A DNA stretch of 20,601 nucleotides from a virus. A model generated the notes under the pieces. That model made no database searches. It was not told the DNA's origin and was given only the letters and a program-made list of their open reading frames with translations. The translations under genes and the position numbers were made by a program. Location: positions 1 to 20,601 of IMG/VR virus record IMGVR_UViG_3300023179_008117; one strand, written 5' to 3'. The first letter of the stretch is position 1. Every line of letters begins with the position of its first letter. Of the stretch, positions 11,308-20,601 are shown piece after piece.

Positions 11308-13638
11308 TCAGGTGGTTTCGGATTCCGCTGGCTCGTCGCCAGTTGCCTGCGCGGAACCCAAATAGTCGGGCTTGCCGATGTTCAGTTCCCAAACACGAGG
11401 CTTGTCGTTGCCATCGGCACCACGGAAGTAGGTCTGCCATTCCGGTGCGCCACGGAACAATTCGGCCATCGTGCGGAATGAGACGCCCGACGCAACTTCG
11501 ATCTGCGCCTTGGTCCATTTGCGCCGTCCGGTTGTCCAGCTATTGACGAAGACTTCGACAACGTCGAGCCAGTCCTTTTTGGTCAACGTCCATGGGTCGG
11601 GCCACGGTCCGTGCAGCGTGCCGCTGCGCGCGTCGTCCTTGATCAGGCGCGGGGTATCAGTTGTCGTGGCCTCGGTTTGACGACGACGGATTTCGGCTTC
11701 GACCGGCGCCAGGTCAATCACAACCTTCCCGTTGACGTCCTTGGCAAGCGTATCCAGTGACACGACTATGCCGGGCCCCAAGTAGCGACGCGGCCGACCC
11801 ACCGTTGTCGACAATACGACGGTGAGGCCAAGGTTGGATTGCCGCAGCTTGGTATCCAGCTTGTTGGCGTGTTTAGGTTCCCACAGCTGGGACACCAGCG
11901 CCACCGGTATTCGCTGATCGCCCATCCGGTAGTTGCCGAGCACATAGGGCTCCTCGTCATCCACCGTCAACGGGATGTCGATCAGTTGTGACCGGAGCAG
12001 TTCGTCGAGCCGCTCGCGCAAGTACCCCTTGCTGATGTCGTAGCGGCAGAGATCTCCTTCGGTCAGATCGTAGCGCTCGCTGCTGAGGTCATCCACCGCC
12101 GAAGTGCTCTTGCTATTGAAGCTAACTTTTAGTCGGCGGAACCCCTGTTGGCCATCGTCATCCTCGACTGGGACGGTGATGTAGTCACCCGGAGCCTTTT
12201 GCCTGAGCAAACCTTTACTCACCAGATCGGCGGCGGTCAGTCCGAGTGCCACAAGCAGATGTCCATCGACCTCATGGCCCGCCAGATCGAGCAGCTTCAT
12301 CTCAGCGCGGAACAGAGCAAGGTCGGCGCCGACCTTAGCCGGTTCGACACGCTTCATCACGCCCAGTGAAGTCAGGATGTCCTCACCGCATTGGCGCAGG
12401 CGTGGATCAGGCAAGTTCAGCAGATTGCACGAACCCCGGTGATCTACCGTGATGTCAAGTGCGCGCGAATCCTGCTCGCCGTCGAAACGGATCGAAAACG
12501 ACAGCTTCACCTCGATCACGGAACGGCAGCTGGACAACGGGTTGTGGTCGCCGAAATGCTTGTCGGACACGCTCCAGACGCTGTCGCTATTCGCCATCGC
12601 AAAAGTGACGCTGTGCCGTGTATGCCCTAGGGTCACGGTGATCGACGAAATCCATGCGTCCAGGATCACAGCACCCTTAGCGGTTGCGGAGCGCAGGTTG
12701 AACGAGCGCTTGAACATGCCCAGCTCGTAGCTGATGGCCCCGACAGGCTGCTTCGAGAGCGGCTTGTCGAATCCGACCGCGACGAAGCGATCCGCGAGGC
12801 GTTGCGCCGTGCCGCGCTTGTCCGAGAGCACGTGCACCTTGTTCGCGGCCGGGTCGTACACCAGCGTCGCTTCCAGTGCGGGTGTGAAGACCAGGAGATC
12901 ACGTCGACGATCCTTCATCTGCCGCAGCAGCTTCATCTTTCCGGGGTGATAGACGACCAGATAGTGCATGCGTCGCTTGGCGGCCGCATCGCCTTCGTCC
13001 ATCTCGAAGTGAATCAGCTCGCAGTTCTGCTTGGCCTCGTAGTCCAGCTCGAGGATTTCGCCCACGCCTTCGTGCAGTTTTTTCTCGACTTCCGGCGTCC
13101 ACTGGAAGTCGCGCCCATCGCCGTCGCGCACCGTGAACCCCAGGAACTTCTTGTGCCCGTGGAAATGGTGAGTCAGGTAGATGGTCTCGATCTGGTCGAA
13201 AACGCGCGACGCCTTGACGTGCAACCAGATCAGCCGGGTCATCGCATCCGCCGACTTGTCGAAGGTGGCGATCTCCGCGTGCTGTTCGAATTCCAGTTCC
13301 CGGTAGGCGTGCTCCAGCATTTCCTCGGTACGGAATCGGACGAGCTGGAGGAGTCGAACGGCCTCCTGATCGGCAATGGTGATGTCCTCGCGCCTGATCT
13401 TGAGGATGTGCTCGCGCAGCGCCGCGCGCGCCTGATCGTCAGGCAGGGACGCATCGATGCCGCTGAGCATGGTGAACTTGTCGACCTGCGCCAGCAGCTG
13501 GAGCGAGGTGACGGTTGCCGATTCGATCAGCTCGGCGATGTGCTTGTTGTTCTTGTGAGACTTCTGGGCCACTCGATGCTCCTTGGATTGATGCTGAGTG
13601 GCCTTCCTCGCTTCGGCACCGTCAGCGCGGTTCGACAT
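11308..13638 (-). CDS. Large protein of unknown family, third gene of ImmA-PIN operon
   Basis: A 776-residue protein; no family was recognised and there is no obvious signal peptide or membrane segment. The N-terminal ~130 residues are helical and charged (HILKIRREDITIADQEAVRL). The middle, about 150-450, looks beta-rich, with LIHFEMDEGDAAAKRRMHYL and SVIEVKLSFSIRFDGEQDSR. The C-terminal ~100 residues look like a winged helix (RKWTKAQIEVASGVSFRTMA). ATG 13638 directly follows the PIN gene stop; a GTG at 13572 has a better AAGGAG site six bases upstream, giving 754 residues. Its place behind an XRE-ImmA regulator and a PIN nuclease suggests a sensor or effector partner. No Walker, nuclease or kinase motif was seen. 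Confidence 0.85.
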   Translation of the reverse strand: MSNRADGAEARKATQHQSKEHRVAQKSHKNNKHIAELIESATVTSLQLLAQVDKFTMLSGIDASLPDDQARAALREHILKIRREDITIADQEAVRLLQLVRFRTEEMLEHAYRELEFEQHAEIATFDKSADAMTRLIWLHVKASRVFDQIETIYLTHHFHGHKKFLGFTVRDGDGRDFQWTPEVEKKLHEGVGEILELDYEAKQNCELIHFEMDEGDAAAKRRMHYLVVYHPGKMKLLRQMKDRRRDLLVFTPALEATLVYDPAANKVHVLSDKRGTAQRLADRFVAVGFDKPLSKQPVGAISYELGMFKRSFNLRSATAKGAVILDAWISSITVTLGHTRHSVTFAMANSDSVWSVSDKHFGDHNPLSSCRSVIEVKLSFSIRFDGEQDSRALDITVDHRGSCNLLNLPDPRLRQCGEDILTSLGVMKRVEPAKVGADLALFRAEMKLLDLAGHEVDGHLLVALGLTAADLVSKGLLRQKAPGDYITVPVEDDDGQQGFRRLKVSFNSKSTSAVDDLSSERYDLTEGDLCRYDISKGYLRERLDELLRSQLIDIPLTVDDEEPYVLGNYRMGDQRIPVALVSQLWEPKHANKLDTKLRQSNLGLTVVLSTTVGRPRRYLGPGIVVSLDTLAKDVNGKVVIDLAPVEAEIRRRQTEATTTDTPRLIKDDARSGTLHGPWPDPWTLTKKDWLDVVEVFVNSWTTGRRKWTKAQIEVASGVSFRTMAELFRGAPEWQTYFRGADGNDKPRVWELNIGKPDYLGSAQATGDEPAESETT

Positions 13639-14160
13639 TCACGGGATGATTCCCAACATGATCTTGGTCTTGATGCTGGACAACCAGTCCTCGCGGTACT
13701 GCAAGGCCAAAGCGTCGAGATTGACGCGACCGACGCCAGCCTTGCGGGCAAGGTCTTCCAGCGAGGTCATGCAGTTGAGCCAGCCCAGCCCATTCGATGC
13801 CACCATGGCCGCCTTGTCGGCGGTGGTCACGACGACGACGTTGCTGGGCAGGAGCTTGCTGGCATGGAGCCAGGCGAACAGGTGCTTTTCGCCGTCGTCC
13901 AGCGTCATGCAGCCGGGCTGGCTGGTGACCAGTGCGGCCAGATCCCTGCGAGTGACGGGATGCCGGGCCGTGACGCCCGCGTGCAGTTCAGCGGGCGTAA
14001 CCGCCACATGGCGTGAATCGGTGGGATCGCCGGTCAGCGTTTCCTCGATGCATTTCTCGACTGTCTCAATCGCGAAGTGGTTGCTGATGGCTTTCCAGCA
14101 TCCCGTTCGGAACGATTCGAGGATGACATTGGTATCCGCGAAAACTCGGATTTTCGGCAT
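13639..14160 (-). CDS. PIN-domain ribonuclease-like protein
   Basis: A 173-residue protein starting IRVFADTNVILESF, the hallmark of the PIN fold with Asp9. Further acidic positions fit the active site: Glu39/Glu40 in EKCIEETL, Asp88-Asp89-Gly-Glu91, and Asp115 in VVVVTTADKA. PIN domains cut RNA with bound Mg2+ or Mn2+ and are common toxins in toxin-antitoxin pairs. The gene starts 12 bases after the XRE-ImmA stop, with an AGGTGAG ribosome-binding site, and its stop touches the ATG of the 776-residue protein. It is longer than most VapC toxins (about 130 residues). Associations of XRE-ImmA with PIN-type partners are known; the large third protein is unusual. Confidence 0.85.
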   Translation of the reverse strand: MPKIRVFADTNVILESFRTGCWKAISNHFAIETVEKCIEETLTGDPTDSRHVAVTPAELHAGVTARHPVTRRDLAALVTSQPGCMTLDDGEKHLFAWLHASKLLPSNVVVVTTADKAAMVASNGLGWLNCMTSLEDLARKAGVGRVNLDALALQYREDWLSSIKTKIMLGIIP

Positions 14161-14172
14161 ACGGCGCTCACC

Positions 14173-15294
14173 TCATAGCTCGAACGGTGCGGTGAGGTCG
14201 TACTGAGCAAACAGCTCGGTCAACCCAGTCAGTCCAAGACCCATGGCCTTGGCAGCTTTGCGAGCCGACAGCCTTCCGTTTTCCAGAGCCTCGTGAAGCA
14301 TCTTCACGAGGGCGGGGGAGAACCGCTTTGGTGGGCCTGACAAAGATGGCCGCTGCTTCTCTTGCGAAAGGCTGCGCCTGGTGTCGTCACCGATGAGCTT
14401 GAGGTTGAACAATCGCCATGCCAGCGTGACGGGAGCGACCCGCAGCACCGCAGCGACTTCGCACAGGTGAGCAATATTGTCCCGATGCTCACGCTCGATC
14501 AACTTGTCTAGGGATGCGCGCGGCATCAGCAGCGCTGCGGCGAAACTGTTCGCCAACTGCTCGATTCGCTTGACCTTGATGCGTTCCTCGCTTGAGTTCG
14601 ATTCCCGATGATCCGGCTTCATCGCATCCCAAGTCAGTGCATGAAAGAGCTCGTGCGCTAGATCGAAATAACGCCGGGCTTCGCTCTCGTTGCGGTTGAT
14701 CAGGATGACACCCATCTCTTCAAGGTGACAGGTGGCACCCGAGATGGACTGACCATCGGCAGTGTCGACCGTATCGACGAACAGCACCGGAATGTCCAGC
14801 TCGCGCTCGATCTTGTCGATCAAGCCTTCGGCTGGAATGACGCCGAGATCCAGCTCGGCAACCAGACTTTCCGCGCGCTCCTGCGCGTCCTCGAAGGAGG
14901 ACTGCGAAGACAGCCGCAGGGTACGCTTGAGCACACTCGACCGGCTGTTCTGTTGTTCGCGCAACCAGCGAAGCAGGCCGATCCACTGACCAGCCTTGAG
15001 CTCAAACCCGTCCAGGCTGTCCTCTGGCACCTCTGGCGCGGCACGCCAGGAAAACTGCGCCTCGCCAGCGACGGCGAACGGGTCGATGAAAAACTCGATG
15101 TCGCAGTCAAGCAGGTCGGACAGCATCAACATCTCGTCGGGCTTGAGCGTGCGCTTGCCATTCTCGATGTCGGACACCGATTGGCGGTCATTGAGGCCGA
15201 GGCCTTGGGCGAGCTGATCCTGCGTCCATCCCTTAGCCTCGCGCGCCGCTTTGACGCGGTAGCCGATCAGCTTGTGGGAGATCTTTTCGAGCAT
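14173..15294 (-). CDS. XRE-family HTH / ImmA-IrrE metallopeptidase fusion
   Basis: A 373-residue regulator-protease. Residues 9-65 form an XRE helix-turn-helix (AREAKGWTQDQLAQGLGL then SVSDIENGKRTLKPDEML). The centre holds the ImmA/IrrE zinc site HELFH at 214-218, preceded by GVILINRNESEARRYFDLAH as in the family. The C-terminal region may add a second HTH-like helix pair. Such proteins act as antitoxins or as phage/ICE repressors inactivated or inactivating through proteolysis. ATG 15294 was chosen because AGGAGGTGA lies just before it; GTG 15303 is within that site. It heads the operon with the PIN and 776-residue genes and probably autoregulates through the adjacent TCTTGC operators. Confidence 0.93.
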   Translation of the reverse strand: MLEKISHKLIGYRVKAAREAKGWTQDQLAQGLGLNDRQSVSDIENGKRTLKPDEMLMLSDLLDCDIEFFIDPFAVAGEAQFSWRAAPEVPEDSLDGFELKAGQWIGLLRWLREQQNSRSSVLKRTLRLSSQSSFEDAQERAESLVAELDLGVIPAEGLIDKIERELDIPVLFVDTVDTADGQSISGATCHLEEMGVILINRNESEARRYFDLAHELFHALTWDAMKPDHRESNSSEERIKVKRIEQLANSFAAALLMPRASLDKLIEREHRDNIAHLCEVAAVLRVAPVTLAWRLFNLKLIGDDTRRSLSQEKQRPSLSGPPKRFSPALVKMLHEALENGRLSARKAAKAMGLGLTGLTELFAQYDLTAPFEL

Positions 15295-15316
15295 GGCAGT
15301 CACCTCCTAAACCTGC

Positions 15317-15345
15317 ATTCTAATCTTGCGAAACGACTAAAGCAA
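15317..15345 (-). promoter_or_regulatory. Promoter of the XRE-ImmA operon
   Basis: On the minus strand TTGCTT (15340-15345) and TAGAAT (15317-15322) are spaced by 17 bases, a good sigma-70 promoter about 22 bases before the XRE-ImmA ATG. Operator half-sites overlap the -35 and the spacer. Confidence 0.65.
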
Positions 15346-15374
15346 GATTTTCTTGCGAAAAATGTCTTGCAAGA
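15322..15374. promoter_or_regulatory. Cluster of TCTTGC operator half-sites
   Basis: AATCTTGC at 15322-15329 is the exact reverse complement of GCAAGATT at 15342-15349. Another TCTTGC lies at 15351-15356, and a perfect TCTTGCAAGA palindrome at 15365-15374. The sites sit in the divergent region between the XRE-ImmA operon and the integration cassette, over the -35 of the former. They are the obvious binding sites for the XRE domain. Confidence 0.7.
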
Positions 15375-15454
15375 TTGTCAACTGCCCTGCGTTGCCATCC
15401 TTTTCGGGGGATCAGGCTCACTATCCATGACGGTTGCAATTCCCCGGAGCCGTC

Positions 15455-15646
15455 ATGAAGAACCTCAAACTTGCCTCTCCCGCGGAGATGGCCCCCAGCG
15501 CCCGCGCAGGCGAAATCACCACGATCCTTGCGGCGGCCATCGTCCGCGCCCAAGTCACCGACGAGCCACGCCATAGCGAAGTTCGGCTTGGCTTCTTGCC
15601 CAACCAGAGCGTTCATACAACCCCCTATCAAGAGGAGAAGTTGTGA
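15455..15646 (+). CDS. Small protein of the recombinase cassette
   Basis: A 63-residue protein starting at ATG 15455 after a GGAG site. It ends with RHSEVRLGFLPNQSVHTTPY, a tail that looks conserved in small proteins preceding DUF2924 and serine recombinase genes of proteobacterial elements. The first half is Ala-rich and helical. Function is unknown. Its TGA overlaps the ATG of the DUF2924 gene by one base, so it is coupled to the integration cassette. Confidence 0.6.
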   Translation: MKNLKLASPAEMAPSARAGEITTILAAAIVRAQVTDEPRHSEVRLGFLPNQSVHTTPYQEEKL

Positions 15647-16095
15647 TGAACGAGAAGCAAGCGTCCGTAGCTGCGCGGATCGCCGAACTGTCCTGCCTGC
15701 CGATGGCAGATCTCTGGACCGTGTGGGATCGGTACTTCCCCCGCCGGCCGGACTACCCGAACCGCACCCACGTAGAGTCCCGCATTGCCTACAAGCTGCA
15801 AGAAGAGGTCTTTGGCGGGCTGGCGCCCGAGATCAAGCAGCGGCTTGAAGCCATCGGCGCAAAGCATTCCAAGATCAAGCTCCGCGCCGCTCCACGCGAG
15901 TTCGAGTTTGCGCCAGGCACCGTCCTGCTGCGCGAATGGGGCGACCGAGAACATCGGGTGACGGTCACCGCCGAAGGGCTGTTCGAGTACGAGGGACAGC
16001 CCTTCAAGAGCCTGACCTCAGTGGCTCGCCAGATCACCGGATCGCATCGGTCTGGGCCGATGTTCTTTGGCTTGGGCAAGGGAGGTGCGCGATGA
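15646..16095 (+). CDS. DUF2924 protein, recombinase-associated
   Basis: A 149-residue protein with the DUF2924 layout: an N-terminal LPMADLWTVWDRYFPRRPDY, then NRTHVESRIAYKLQEEVFGG, and a C-terminal domain with GTVLLREWGDREHRVTVTAE, FEYEGQPFKSLTSVARQITG. The C-terminal half resembles small DNA-binding units. These proteins nearly always precede large serine recombinases in proteobacterial elements, suggesting a partner or directionality factor; the function is not established. ATG 15646 has AGAGGAGA upstream and its stop overlaps the recombinase start (ATGA). Confidence 0.85.
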   Translation: MNEKQASVAARIAELSCLPMADLWTVWDRYFPRRPDYPNRTHVESRIAYKLQEEVFGGLAPEIKQRLEAIGAKHSKIKLRAAPREFEFAPGTVLLREWGDREHRVTVTAEGLFEYEGQPFKSLTSVARQITGSHRSGPMFFGLGKGGAR

Positions 16096-18476: not shown

Positions 18477-19442
18477 CTACCCAATTGCGGTACCCTTGCC
18501 GACATCAGCAGCCGAGCGAATCTCAGTGTACGTGGTCAAGTAGCGAAGGTAGTCACCGAGTTCAGCTAAGTCGATCTCATGTTCCAGGTAGTCTTTGACT
18601 GACACTACGATCGTGAAACTCTCGCAGAAGCGGTCAGTCACTGATGCGGCCACCACGCTGCGAAGGATTTCTTTGACTACGGCCTGTCTTGGCGCCATGA
18701 GTTTGCCAAACCCTGTGCCAAGGACAGGGACACGCAGCCGGGGTAGCCCACCACCCTTCTCGGCGATGTGCTGCCAAAGTCCCACAAGCGAGGCTCTCAA
18801 GTCATCTATCGAACAGTTGGCGACGCCATGAGCATTCATAGTTGCCATAGCTACCAGATAGGTCGTTCGAGCAGAAACGTTAACTTTTGCCACAGTACCC
18901 ATCCCGAACAGACGAAGTTTGCCGACATGCTTCTCAGCCTGCGGTAGGACGACATTTGGCTCATTTCTAAGCTGTGCATCTAGTTCGGCGTCTAGGTGCT
19001 GAACTGAGTTGTAGTAGCGTTGGGTGAACTGACCTTGAATGCTACGAGGAGATATCAATTCATCTTTGAGCTCTGTATCAAACGTGCGATTCGTCCCGAT
19101 CACCAGAACGTCAGACCCATCGAAGAGGTCGCCGAGTTCGATAGAGATGGTCAGATCACGTTGCTTTAGTCTTGAACTCACTCGAATCGTCGGCGCTAAC
19201 GTCGCAGCTGCTATCAACAACGCAAAGACAGCAATCAGGAGGATGACAGTCCAATAGTTCGCCTGCAACCATTGCTGCAGCCAGTTGACGCTGGGCTGGA
19301 ACAGGGAAATCAATTTCTTAGCCGCCTCAAGGGCAGCAGCGGATCCACCGACAACGGCGAAGAACGACTTCAAAAAGGCCTTCGCCGAGAACTGATTCTT
19401 CCAGTAGTGCGTAGAGAAGAGTATGCGGAAATATGCCCTCAA
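18477..19442 (-). CDS. thsA: Type II Thoeris effector ThsA: two-TM / macro-domain protein
   Basis: A 321-residue membrane protein of the DUF6430-like group. A weak hydrophobic segment at 23-41 and a strong one at 64-83 (WTVILLIAVFALLIAAATLA) fit two transmembrane helices. The rest is a macro domain: VLVIGTNRTFDTEL at 112-125, RSIQGQFTQRYYNSV, and PVLGTGFGKL at 239-248 as the phosphate/ribose-binding loop. In type II Thoeris, this architecture is the effector that binds an ADP-ribose-derived signal made by the TIR protein and damages the membrane. The start is TTG 19442, with TAGGAG seven bases upstream and a four-base overlap with the thsB stop. G+C is lower than in neighbouring phage genes, indicating separate acquisition. 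Confidence 0.85.
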   Translation of the reverse strand: MRAYFRILFSTHYWKNQFSAKAFLKSFFAVVGGSAAALEAAKKLISLFQPSVNWLQQWLQANYWTVILLIAVFALLIAAATLAPTIRVSSRLKQRDLTISIELGDLFDGSDVLVIGTNRTFDTELKDELISPRSIQGQFTQRYYNSVQHLDAELDAQLRNEPNVVLPQAEKHVGKLRLFGMGTVAKVNVSARTTYLVAMATMNAHGVANCSIDDLRASLVGLWQHIAEKGGGLPRLRVPVLGTGFGKLMAPRQAVVKEILRSVVAASVTDRFCESFTIVVSVKDYLEHEIDLAELGDYLRYLTTYTEIRSAADVGKGTAIG

Positions 19443-19948
19443 GATGCGACTCCTAGACGGGCATAAACCTCATTCTTGAAGAAGTAGGGGCCAGTGCGGC
19501 CCTCCCTACGTAACCGCGCGTCGTTGCTGGGCCACGTCTCAAGTGCCTCCTGTAGAACCGCAGCGCGGAAACTAATGTGGAGGGCAAGTTCGTTTCGAAT
19601 CACGGGTGGGCAACGGTCCGAATCTTGTTGACGGAGCCCGTTCAAGTTCACAGCCACGATGGGCAACTGCATTGAGATCGCCTGCTCCATCTCCCATCGC
19701 ACAAACTTATATAAATACCGAGTTTGCTCACCGATCAGTACTATAAAGATCTTGGTATTCGCCAGTCTTACCCGAAGTTGGGCCTTGATGGAGGATTCGA
19801 GGCTTGAGTCTCGCGCGTTGTTTAGGTCGTGCGCGTCGTAGAAGCTGAACGGCGTGTGGTCGCTTTGGTGCCACGCTTGCATCAAGCGGTAGTAGTGGAT
19901 GTCGCTGTCACCATCAAAGCAGACGTATGTCTTGTTGCGGTAGGCCAT
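19439..19948 (-). CDS. thsB: Type II Thoeris sensor ThsB: TIR-domain protein
   Basis: A 169-residue TIR protein of the ThsB type. It opens TYVCFDGDSDIHYYRLMQAW, continues with FSFYDAHDLNNARDSS and ANTKIFIVLIGEQTRYLYKF, and has WEMEQAI with Glu86 (or Glu88) in the position of the NADase glutamate. On phage infection such proteins convert NAD+ into a nucleotide signal; for type II systems histidine-ADP-ribose has been reported. ATG 19948 was chosen for its GGGAGGAG site and the match to the family start; the in-frame ATG/GTG codons upstream have none. It is translationally coupled to the downstream thsA. Confidence 0.88.
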   Translation of the reverse strand: MAYRNKTYVCFDGDSDIHYYRLMQAWHQSDHTPFSFYDAHDLNNARDSSLESSIKAQLRVRLANTKIFIVLIGEQTRYLYKFVRWEMEQAISMQLPIVAVNLNGLRQQDSDRCPPVIRNELALHISFRAAVLQEALETWPSNDARLRREGRTGPYFFKNEVYARLGVAS

Positions 19949-19972
19949 TGTCTCCTCCCAGCGTATCGATTG

Positions 19973-20038
19973 TGAGCAAATTCTCGCTGAAACGGCGATA
20001 CCGGGCGTCCTTAGCCGCCCAACCAAGCAATTTGCTCA
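19973..20038. repeat. 10-bp inverted repeat upstream of thsB
   Basis: TGAGCAAATT (19973-19982) and AATTTGCTCA (20029-20038) are exact reverse complements 46 bases apart. The distal arm is part of an AGCAA-T-TTGCT dyad (20025-20035). The arms flank the expected thsB promoter, although no good -35/-10 pair was seen. Confidence 0.5.
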
Positions 20039-20474: not shown

Positions 20475-20601
20475 TGGTGGAGCTGGCGGGATTTGAACCC
20501 GCGTCCACAAGCCTTCTTCGAACAGTTCTACATGTGTAGTCGTCTGATTGATGTCTCGCCAAGTGCACCGCGCAGCGACACGCTGTGCACCCAACCAGTA
20601 C
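20475..20601 (-). ncRNA. ssrA: tmRNA (ssrA), 3' part, cut by right edge
   Basis: Read on the minus strand, the last bases are a tRNA-like T arm (GGTTCAAATCC) and acceptor ending GCTCCACCA, preceded by ACATGTAGAACTG as in proteobacterial tmRNA. The tag reading frame and 5' acceptor half lie outside the window. tmRNA rescues stalled ribosomes by trans-translation. The ssrA 3' end is a common integration hotspot for mobile elements, which fits the foreign genes beside it. Confidence 0.92.

Follow-up and report, generated by a model that had tools for sequence, protein, structure and literature searches.

A conserved TCTTGC-N12-GCAAGA repeat array at the promoter of an XRE-ImmA/PIN gene pair as a probable autoregulatory operator of defence operons

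Described controllers and the XRE-ImmA/PIN pair

Toxin-antitoxin systems of the RosmerTA type combine an RmrA antitoxin, which carries an ImmA protease and often an HTH, with varied RmrT toxins, and the NetFlax node D25 pairs also with PIN-like domains (PMC10440598). COG2856-Xre fusions encoded with PIN or RelE genes were predicted to form three-component toxin-antitoxin systems (PMC2701414). CapW/BrxR and CapH+CapP are DNA-damage controllers which together are said to regulate BREX, Pycsar, CBASS and DISARM operons; CapH+CapP is encoded beside defence operons and pairs an HTH repressor with a protease that single-stranded DNA activates and that then cleaves the repressor (PMC13373217). Two XRE regulators of Mycobacterium tuberculosis are also of relevance: PrpR recognises a TTGC-containing palindrome (TTTGCAAA), and RamB represses its own gene (PMC3420887). 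As far as the available parts of these sources go, HTH-ImmA fusions beside PIN genes have been predicted as toxin-antitoxin systems and belong to the RosmerTA zone of NetFlax, and controllers that respond to DNA damage are known for defence operons, DISARM among them. No description of a TCTTGC-N12-GCAAGA operator, or of an XRE-ImmA/PIN pair ahead of DISARM, was found in the accessible parts of the open-licence literature.

The DNA analysed here (the window) is a stretch of 20,601 nucleotides from a viral record (IMGVR_UViG_3300023179_008117). On its minus strand, at 14173..15303, it encodes a regulator of 376 aa, XRE-ImmA, with Pfam domains HTH_3 and Peptidase_M78; a single chain carries both the HTH and the ImmA-type peptidase, which are not encoded by separate genes. 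By eye, the GTG at 15303 overlaps a likely ribosome-binding site, so that translation probably begins at the ATG at 15294, and the corresponding methionine (M4) is invariant in the alignment. The next gene in the same direction (13639..14160, minus strand) encodes a PIN-like partner, a predicted nuclease and candidate toxin. It is abutted by a third gene (11308..13638, minus strand) for a protein of 776 aa.

Like RosmerTA, the window holds an HTH and M78 protein that matches the PADLOC RmrA models (E 1.1e-28), followed by a PIN-like protein, and the pair shares with RosmerTA its occurrence in prophages and defence loci (PMC10440598). Unlike RosmerTA, the adjacent partner has no match to any PADLOC model, its fold suggesting VapC/PIN in a model of moderate quality, and the pair also heads multi-gene defence operons; the available part of PMC10440598 mentions no operator. 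The gene arrangement is identical to that of the COG2856-Xre/PIN systems, whose prediction came without an operator and, in the part of PMC2701414 available, without a stated association with DISARM. As in CapH+CapP, an HTH regulator with a protease is found next to defence operons (here judged from sequence alone), whereas HTH and ImmA-type peptidase form a single chain and a PIN-like gene lies between the regulator and the defence genes (PMC13373217). PrpR and RamB, according to the accessible text of PMC3420887, involve a compact 8-bp palindrome and metabolic targets, unlike the operator of the window with its half-sites 12 bp apart.

The repeat array, its conservation and its binding unit

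Two copies of TCTTGC-N12-GCAAGA lie in tandem, 27 bp apart, on the strand of the XRE-ImmA gene (window 15322-15376). Read along this coding strand, the full array is TCTTGC-N12-GCAAGA-N3-TCTTGC-N12-GCAAGA, a 24-bp inverted repeat with a 27-bp period. The proximal operator occupies 15324..15347 (minus strand; half-sites 15342-15347 and 15324-15329), and the distal operator, 27 bp upstream, occupies 15351..15374 (minus strand; half-sites 15369-15374 and 15351-15356). We name the half-sites HS1 to HS4, HS4 being the closest to the XRE-ImmA gene; the outer half-site of the distal operator is the least conserved of the array. Proximally, the -35 hexamer TTGCTT (15340..15345, minus strand) overlaps the upstream half-site, and the -10 hexamer TAGAAT (15317..15322, minus strand) follows one base past the operator, with a 17-bp spacer. 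The proximal operator hence spans the -35 to just short of the -10, overlapping what appears to be the core promoter of XRE-ImmA itself. A consensus scan of 15000-15800 for promoters and terminators returned none, and both hexamers were taken from the alignment instead; TAnnnT is found at the -10 place, one base past the operator, in 52 of 57 aligned sequences.

An earlier, sequence-only reading had described this region as two arms, an extra TCTTGC and a perfect TCTTGCAAGA palindrome, overlapping the -35 of the XRE-ImmA promoter. All of these elements are where they were claimed to be, the overlap is borne out (TTGCTT-N17-TAGAAT), and the repeats are non-random. TCTTGC occurs 24 times in the window (13.6 expected), five of these within 51 bases, and the four-half-site score of the window is 24/24, the best dinucleotide shuffle reaching 17. 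However, a repeat search detected a 27-nt direct repeat, and the arms were consequently re-parsed as two tandem N12 sites, which is the better description. A search of the whole window for N12 pairs with fewer than 3 of 12 mismatches gave none beyond the proximal and the distal operator, both of which are perfect. The palindrome (15365-15374), although present in the upstream region of the window, occurs in 0/66 upstream regions of relatives and is, by this comparison, incidental, a by-product of chance.

Relatives of the 376-aa protein came from 77 loci, 46 of them in bacterial genomes and 31 on viral contigs. The analysis used 66; left out were L026, L035, L038 and L077, in which the N-terminus is missing, and L041-L047, which match to the HTH only. 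Together with the window, the 66 yield 58 distinct 51-mers for the four-half-site test and 59 distinct upstream regions for the test of the N12 pair. The 51-mers score 21.2/24 on average (lowest 13, in L033), compared to a mean of 11.6 and a maximum of 17 among 11,600 dinucleotide shuffles (200 for each of the 58 distinct upstream regions). An N12 pair of at least 10/12 is present in 59/59 distinct upstream regions (40 perfect, 15 at 11, 4 at 10), a level that 0.5% of mononucleotide shuffles get to. Perfect half-sites among the 58 number 17 (HS1), 32 (HS2), 45 (HS3) and 47 (HS4). In the column statistics (57 sequences; L039, whose two sites are 28 bp apart, was excluded), the information per base is 1.09, 1.22, 1.77 and 1.70 bits for HS1 to HS4, compared with 0.37 and 0.54 for the two spacers, where mainly A/T is kept, 2-3 bases inward of each half-site. 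Half-sites that are kept amid drifting spacers are the pattern expected of a binding site. The check for conservation in relatives that retain the XRE domain, as proposed with the earlier reading, thus finds the array kept, and together with the overlap of the promoter this supports the proposal that the repeats act as an operator array of the XRE-ImmA operon. Each of 20 host genomes has 0 to 3 exact copies of the motif (14 have at least one), some of them clearly away from XRE; in a complete genome of 3.4 Mb (G003) it is found once only, at the XRE promoter.

The binding unit is a separate matter. Centre to centre, half-sites are spaced 18 bp apart in the N12 pair and 9 bp in the N3 pair. XRE dimers such as 434 or lambda have a half-site spacing shorter than 18 bp, to which the 9 bp of the inner GCAAGA-N3-TCTTGC fits better, and the binding unit is therefore uncertain. 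The true dimer site may be this central 15-bp palindrome, flanked by half-sites, and not the N12 pair; we regard this as rather unlikely, yet as a reading to be reckoned with. Besides its 434-like spacing, the N3 neighbour is kept in three distant homologues (L080, L081, L083), and in the 70% group it is kept in part (GCAAGT, GCAATA, GCAACC, GCAATT). On the other hand, L033 and L079 have the N12 pair only, the N3 of L039 has become N4 with both N12 kept, and the two best conserved half-sites, HS3 and HS4, make up an N12 pair. Across 39 representatives, moreover, the scores of HS1 and HS2 go together (r +0.31, reached by about 3% of permutations, which indicates joint decay, if anything), whereas those of HS2 and HS3 do not (r 0.04); for HS3 and HS4 r is +0.12. 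We also considered a constant total operator strength, for which a negative relation of half-sites within an operator is expected; with r at +0.31 and +0.12 no such relation was found, and the idea was rejected. The value for HS1 and HS4 (r -0.25, P 0.046) is one of six pairs and is not taken as meaningful. The structural model of XRE-ImmA is a monomer (mean pLDDT 70) and has no part in the question of spacing.

The opposite cassette and the range of the motif

Opposite to XRE-ImmA lie a small ORF, a DUF2924 protein and a serine recombinase. The sequence-only reading held that the repeats may also govern this integration cassette and link defence/lysogeny to integration. Such a two-way switch, in which the XRE protein would control both its own operon and the DUF2924-recombinase cassette, appears improbable to us. 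Operator and some cassette gene do share a locus in 51/66 cases, and the cassette's own conserved block (15380..15457, plus strand, left edge approximate) begins only about 5 bp beyond the distal operator. Proximity in itself could affect both; in L089, another HTH protein occupies the slot beside the cassette. However, among the 15 loci without a cassette gene, the 13 with at least 1.5 kb upstream all keep the operator (12 distinct sequences); the block is still present in four of these (L016, L055, L068, L078), and nine are without both. The best conserved copy of the operator, too, is the one nearest XRE and not the one nearest the cassette.

The reverse comparison points the same way. A PF11149 search of host genomes gave 30 DUF2924 loci, 16 of them beside XRE-ImmA and all 16 with the array (18/24 or more). 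In the 14 cassettes without XRE, the operator is found in 0/13 informative loci (12 distinct places, L112 and L113 being one place with a broken gene), none scoring above 16/24; L111, with 148 upstream bases, was excluded, and a phage cassette (L114) and a plasmid cassette (L115) were left out of the scoring. Most XRE-less cassettes are distant (39-54% in DUF2924), but L089 and L104 are close (77-78%). These two keep the cassette block from about 15380 to the start of the ORF; judged by eye, their similarity to the window breaks off at the point expected for the operator. As the block is kept without XRE and the operator without the cassette, two modules seem to be joined at a sharp junction, and neither control of the cassette by the repeats nor a link of defence/lysogeny to integration finds support. 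A side effect on the cassette promoter by nearness alone is possible in the joint arrangement.

Within the cassette block, CATGACGG/CCGTCATG arms are found at 15426-15457. A sigma-54 promoter or an RNA hairpin was considered for this block and rejected, spacing and pairing seeming by eye not to be kept. In L089, the place opposite the cassette is taken by a different HTH-like protein, which a second open frame follows, and this slot may exchange regulators. Farther along, window 18477-20026 (minus strand) holds a Thoeris pair (ThsA with a macro-domain, ThsB TIR-like) between the recombinase operon and the tmRNA end. The 3' part of a tmRNA gene (Rfam) lies at the end of the window (20475-20601, minus strand), which suggests that the element sits at ssrA; a tRNA scan of the window returned none.

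The motif extends to distant homologues. Among 11 homologues at 35-47% identity, nine have an N12 site of at least 10/12, one has N13 (L142) and one has no site (L082); for plasmid homologues (39-47% identity) the N12 site is found in 4/5. Loci were also picked independently of the motif, by searches with a PIN alignment. In 369 genomes the module was found in nine, of which two were already known, five are new at 70-72% identity and two are at 41%. The five new loci all score 11-12/12 (L120 and L122 share one site sequence). In the two at 41%, a small gene precedes XRE; the operator, with TAAAAT after it, lies ahead of that gene, about 330-340 bases upstream and thus at the head of a longer operon (12/12 in L133, 10/12 in L132). 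The 10/12 of L132 alone proves little, because two further such places exist within its 14.5 kb; position and -10 make the case. The small ORF between operator and XRE is conserved (L132 11060-11480, and L133 on the reverse strand; MTRKTVPFN.. and MPRKTVPFN..). A PIN search of 398 genomes gave six matches, namely one known, one weak (L139) and four at 35-42% identity: L140 and L141 at 12/12, L143 at 10/12, and L142 with intact half-sites at N13. The weak PIN-only matches L139 and L125 were left out. As controls, six XRE-ImmA genes at 24-30% identity have no site above 8/12, and 0/7 HTH-only loci (L041-L047) score above 9/12. Two of the distant XRE-ImmA genes at 24-30% identity (L127, L130) lie opposite ubiquitin-like genes (multiubiquitin, ThiF).

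The one homologue without a TCTTGC-N12-GCAAGA site upstream, L082 (39% identity, plasmid), reads DDDS in its recognition helix, versus DRQS/T in the other homologues compared and SRQI in L143. An altered operator was sought in L082, but inverted repeats longer than 5, at gaps of up to 20, were not found. These observations bear on whether some other factor, encoded by host or phage, binds the repeats in place of the XRE protein, whose binding is predicted. We consider this very unlikely: the motif stays with the XRE-ImmA family in plasmids, prophages and beta-, gamma- and alphaproteobacterial hosts, which would be unexpected if a host factor bound it, and the sole homologue without the motif has a changed recognition helix. 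That the conserved TTGC is simply the -35, whose first letters HS3 supplies in the window (TTGCTT) and at which it lies in 57/57 aligned sequences, can practically be dismissed, since conservation extends to sequences that are no promoter elements, namely the distal half-sites (1.1-1.2 bits per base) and the GCAAGA immediately ahead of the -10 (1.7).

The PIN partner, the cargo and a possible mode of control

Of 62 relatives with enough DNA behind XRE-ImmA, 57 have a PIN-like gene next to it, three a fragment (L021, L024, L055) and two none (L037, L068). In the alignment of the PIN-like protein, D9, E40 and D88 are invariant and D115 is nearly so, residues which we take to fit a PIN active site. 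The protein's model is moderate (mean pLDDT 67), with no Foldseek match under E 0.001; a structural search with it reached a middling Z of 7.6, the top rows being nearly all VapC/PIN. Pfam finds no PIN match in the window's own protein and weak ones in 2/6 distant partners (E 0.004 and 0.3), both under the curated cut-off. The 776-aa protein has no family match in Pfam, NCBIfam or PADLOC and no sequence match in PDB; a relative more than 50% identical exists in 40/66 loci, and a version 24% identical in L020 and L074.

In five distant homologues (35-47% identity), the module of operator, XRE-ImmA and PIN stands directly ahead of DISARM drmA, which follows straight after it by annotation in L080, L081 and L083; in L140 and L143, PADLOC assigns DrmA-DrmB after the module. 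In L133, DrmD- and DrmMI-like genes lie immediately ahead of the operator, and the module is followed by a DruE-like (Druantia) gene that is truncated where the locus ends. With these genes on either side of operator and XRE-PIN, this locus (L133 1-10441) has the make-up of a mixed DISARM/Druantia-like defence locus. Several further loci have the XRE-ImmA/PIN pair among other genes. The eight proteins of the window that were scanned gave no Drm match.

Based on this dataset, the repeats are most likely the autoregulatory operator array of a portable, RosmerTA-like XRE-ImmA/PIN controller of defence operons. We hypothesize that the XRE domain of XRE-ImmA binds TCTTGC-N12-GCAAGA, with an extended half-site of about TCTTGCnWW. 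As the proximal site spans the core promoter from -35 to -10, its occupation would shut RNA polymerase out of the module promoter. The distal site, usually with one weak half-site, could load a second dimer, possibly in a cooperative manner, and thereby strengthen or tune repression. The operon of XRE-ImmA, the putatively toxic PIN protein and an effector (the 776-aa protein here, DISARM genes elsewhere) would thus be kept low. When phages attack or DNA is damaged, the repressor would be inactivated by its own ImmA peptidase domain and the operon thereby set free; CapP acts in this way on CapH in the available account of that system (PMC13373217).

A more far-reaching version of this autoregulatory model is offered tentatively, and we would not be surprised to see it fail. 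Operator, XRE-ImmA and PIN might constitute one transferable cassette placed ahead of unrelated cargo (DISARM, a Druantia-like helicase, the 776-aa protein of the prophage family), its unusual long-spaced operator being kept from 35 to 94% protein identity. PIN might bridge two XRE-ImmA dimers across the sites 27 bp apart, so that the ratio of PIN to regulator, together with ImmA cleavage, would set the switch-on of defence. If such a plug-in control cassette exists, the 776-aa protein would be a new anti-phage effector.

For many defence operons, little is known of the way in which they are switched on. The analysis separates two prophage modules which a reading of the sequence had joined. 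In prophages, plasmids and chromosomes alike, and ahead of DISARM and Druantia-like genes, the motif described here identifies the promoter of a single controller family, and it may be used to find operons under the XRE-ImmA controller and to predict their transcription starts.
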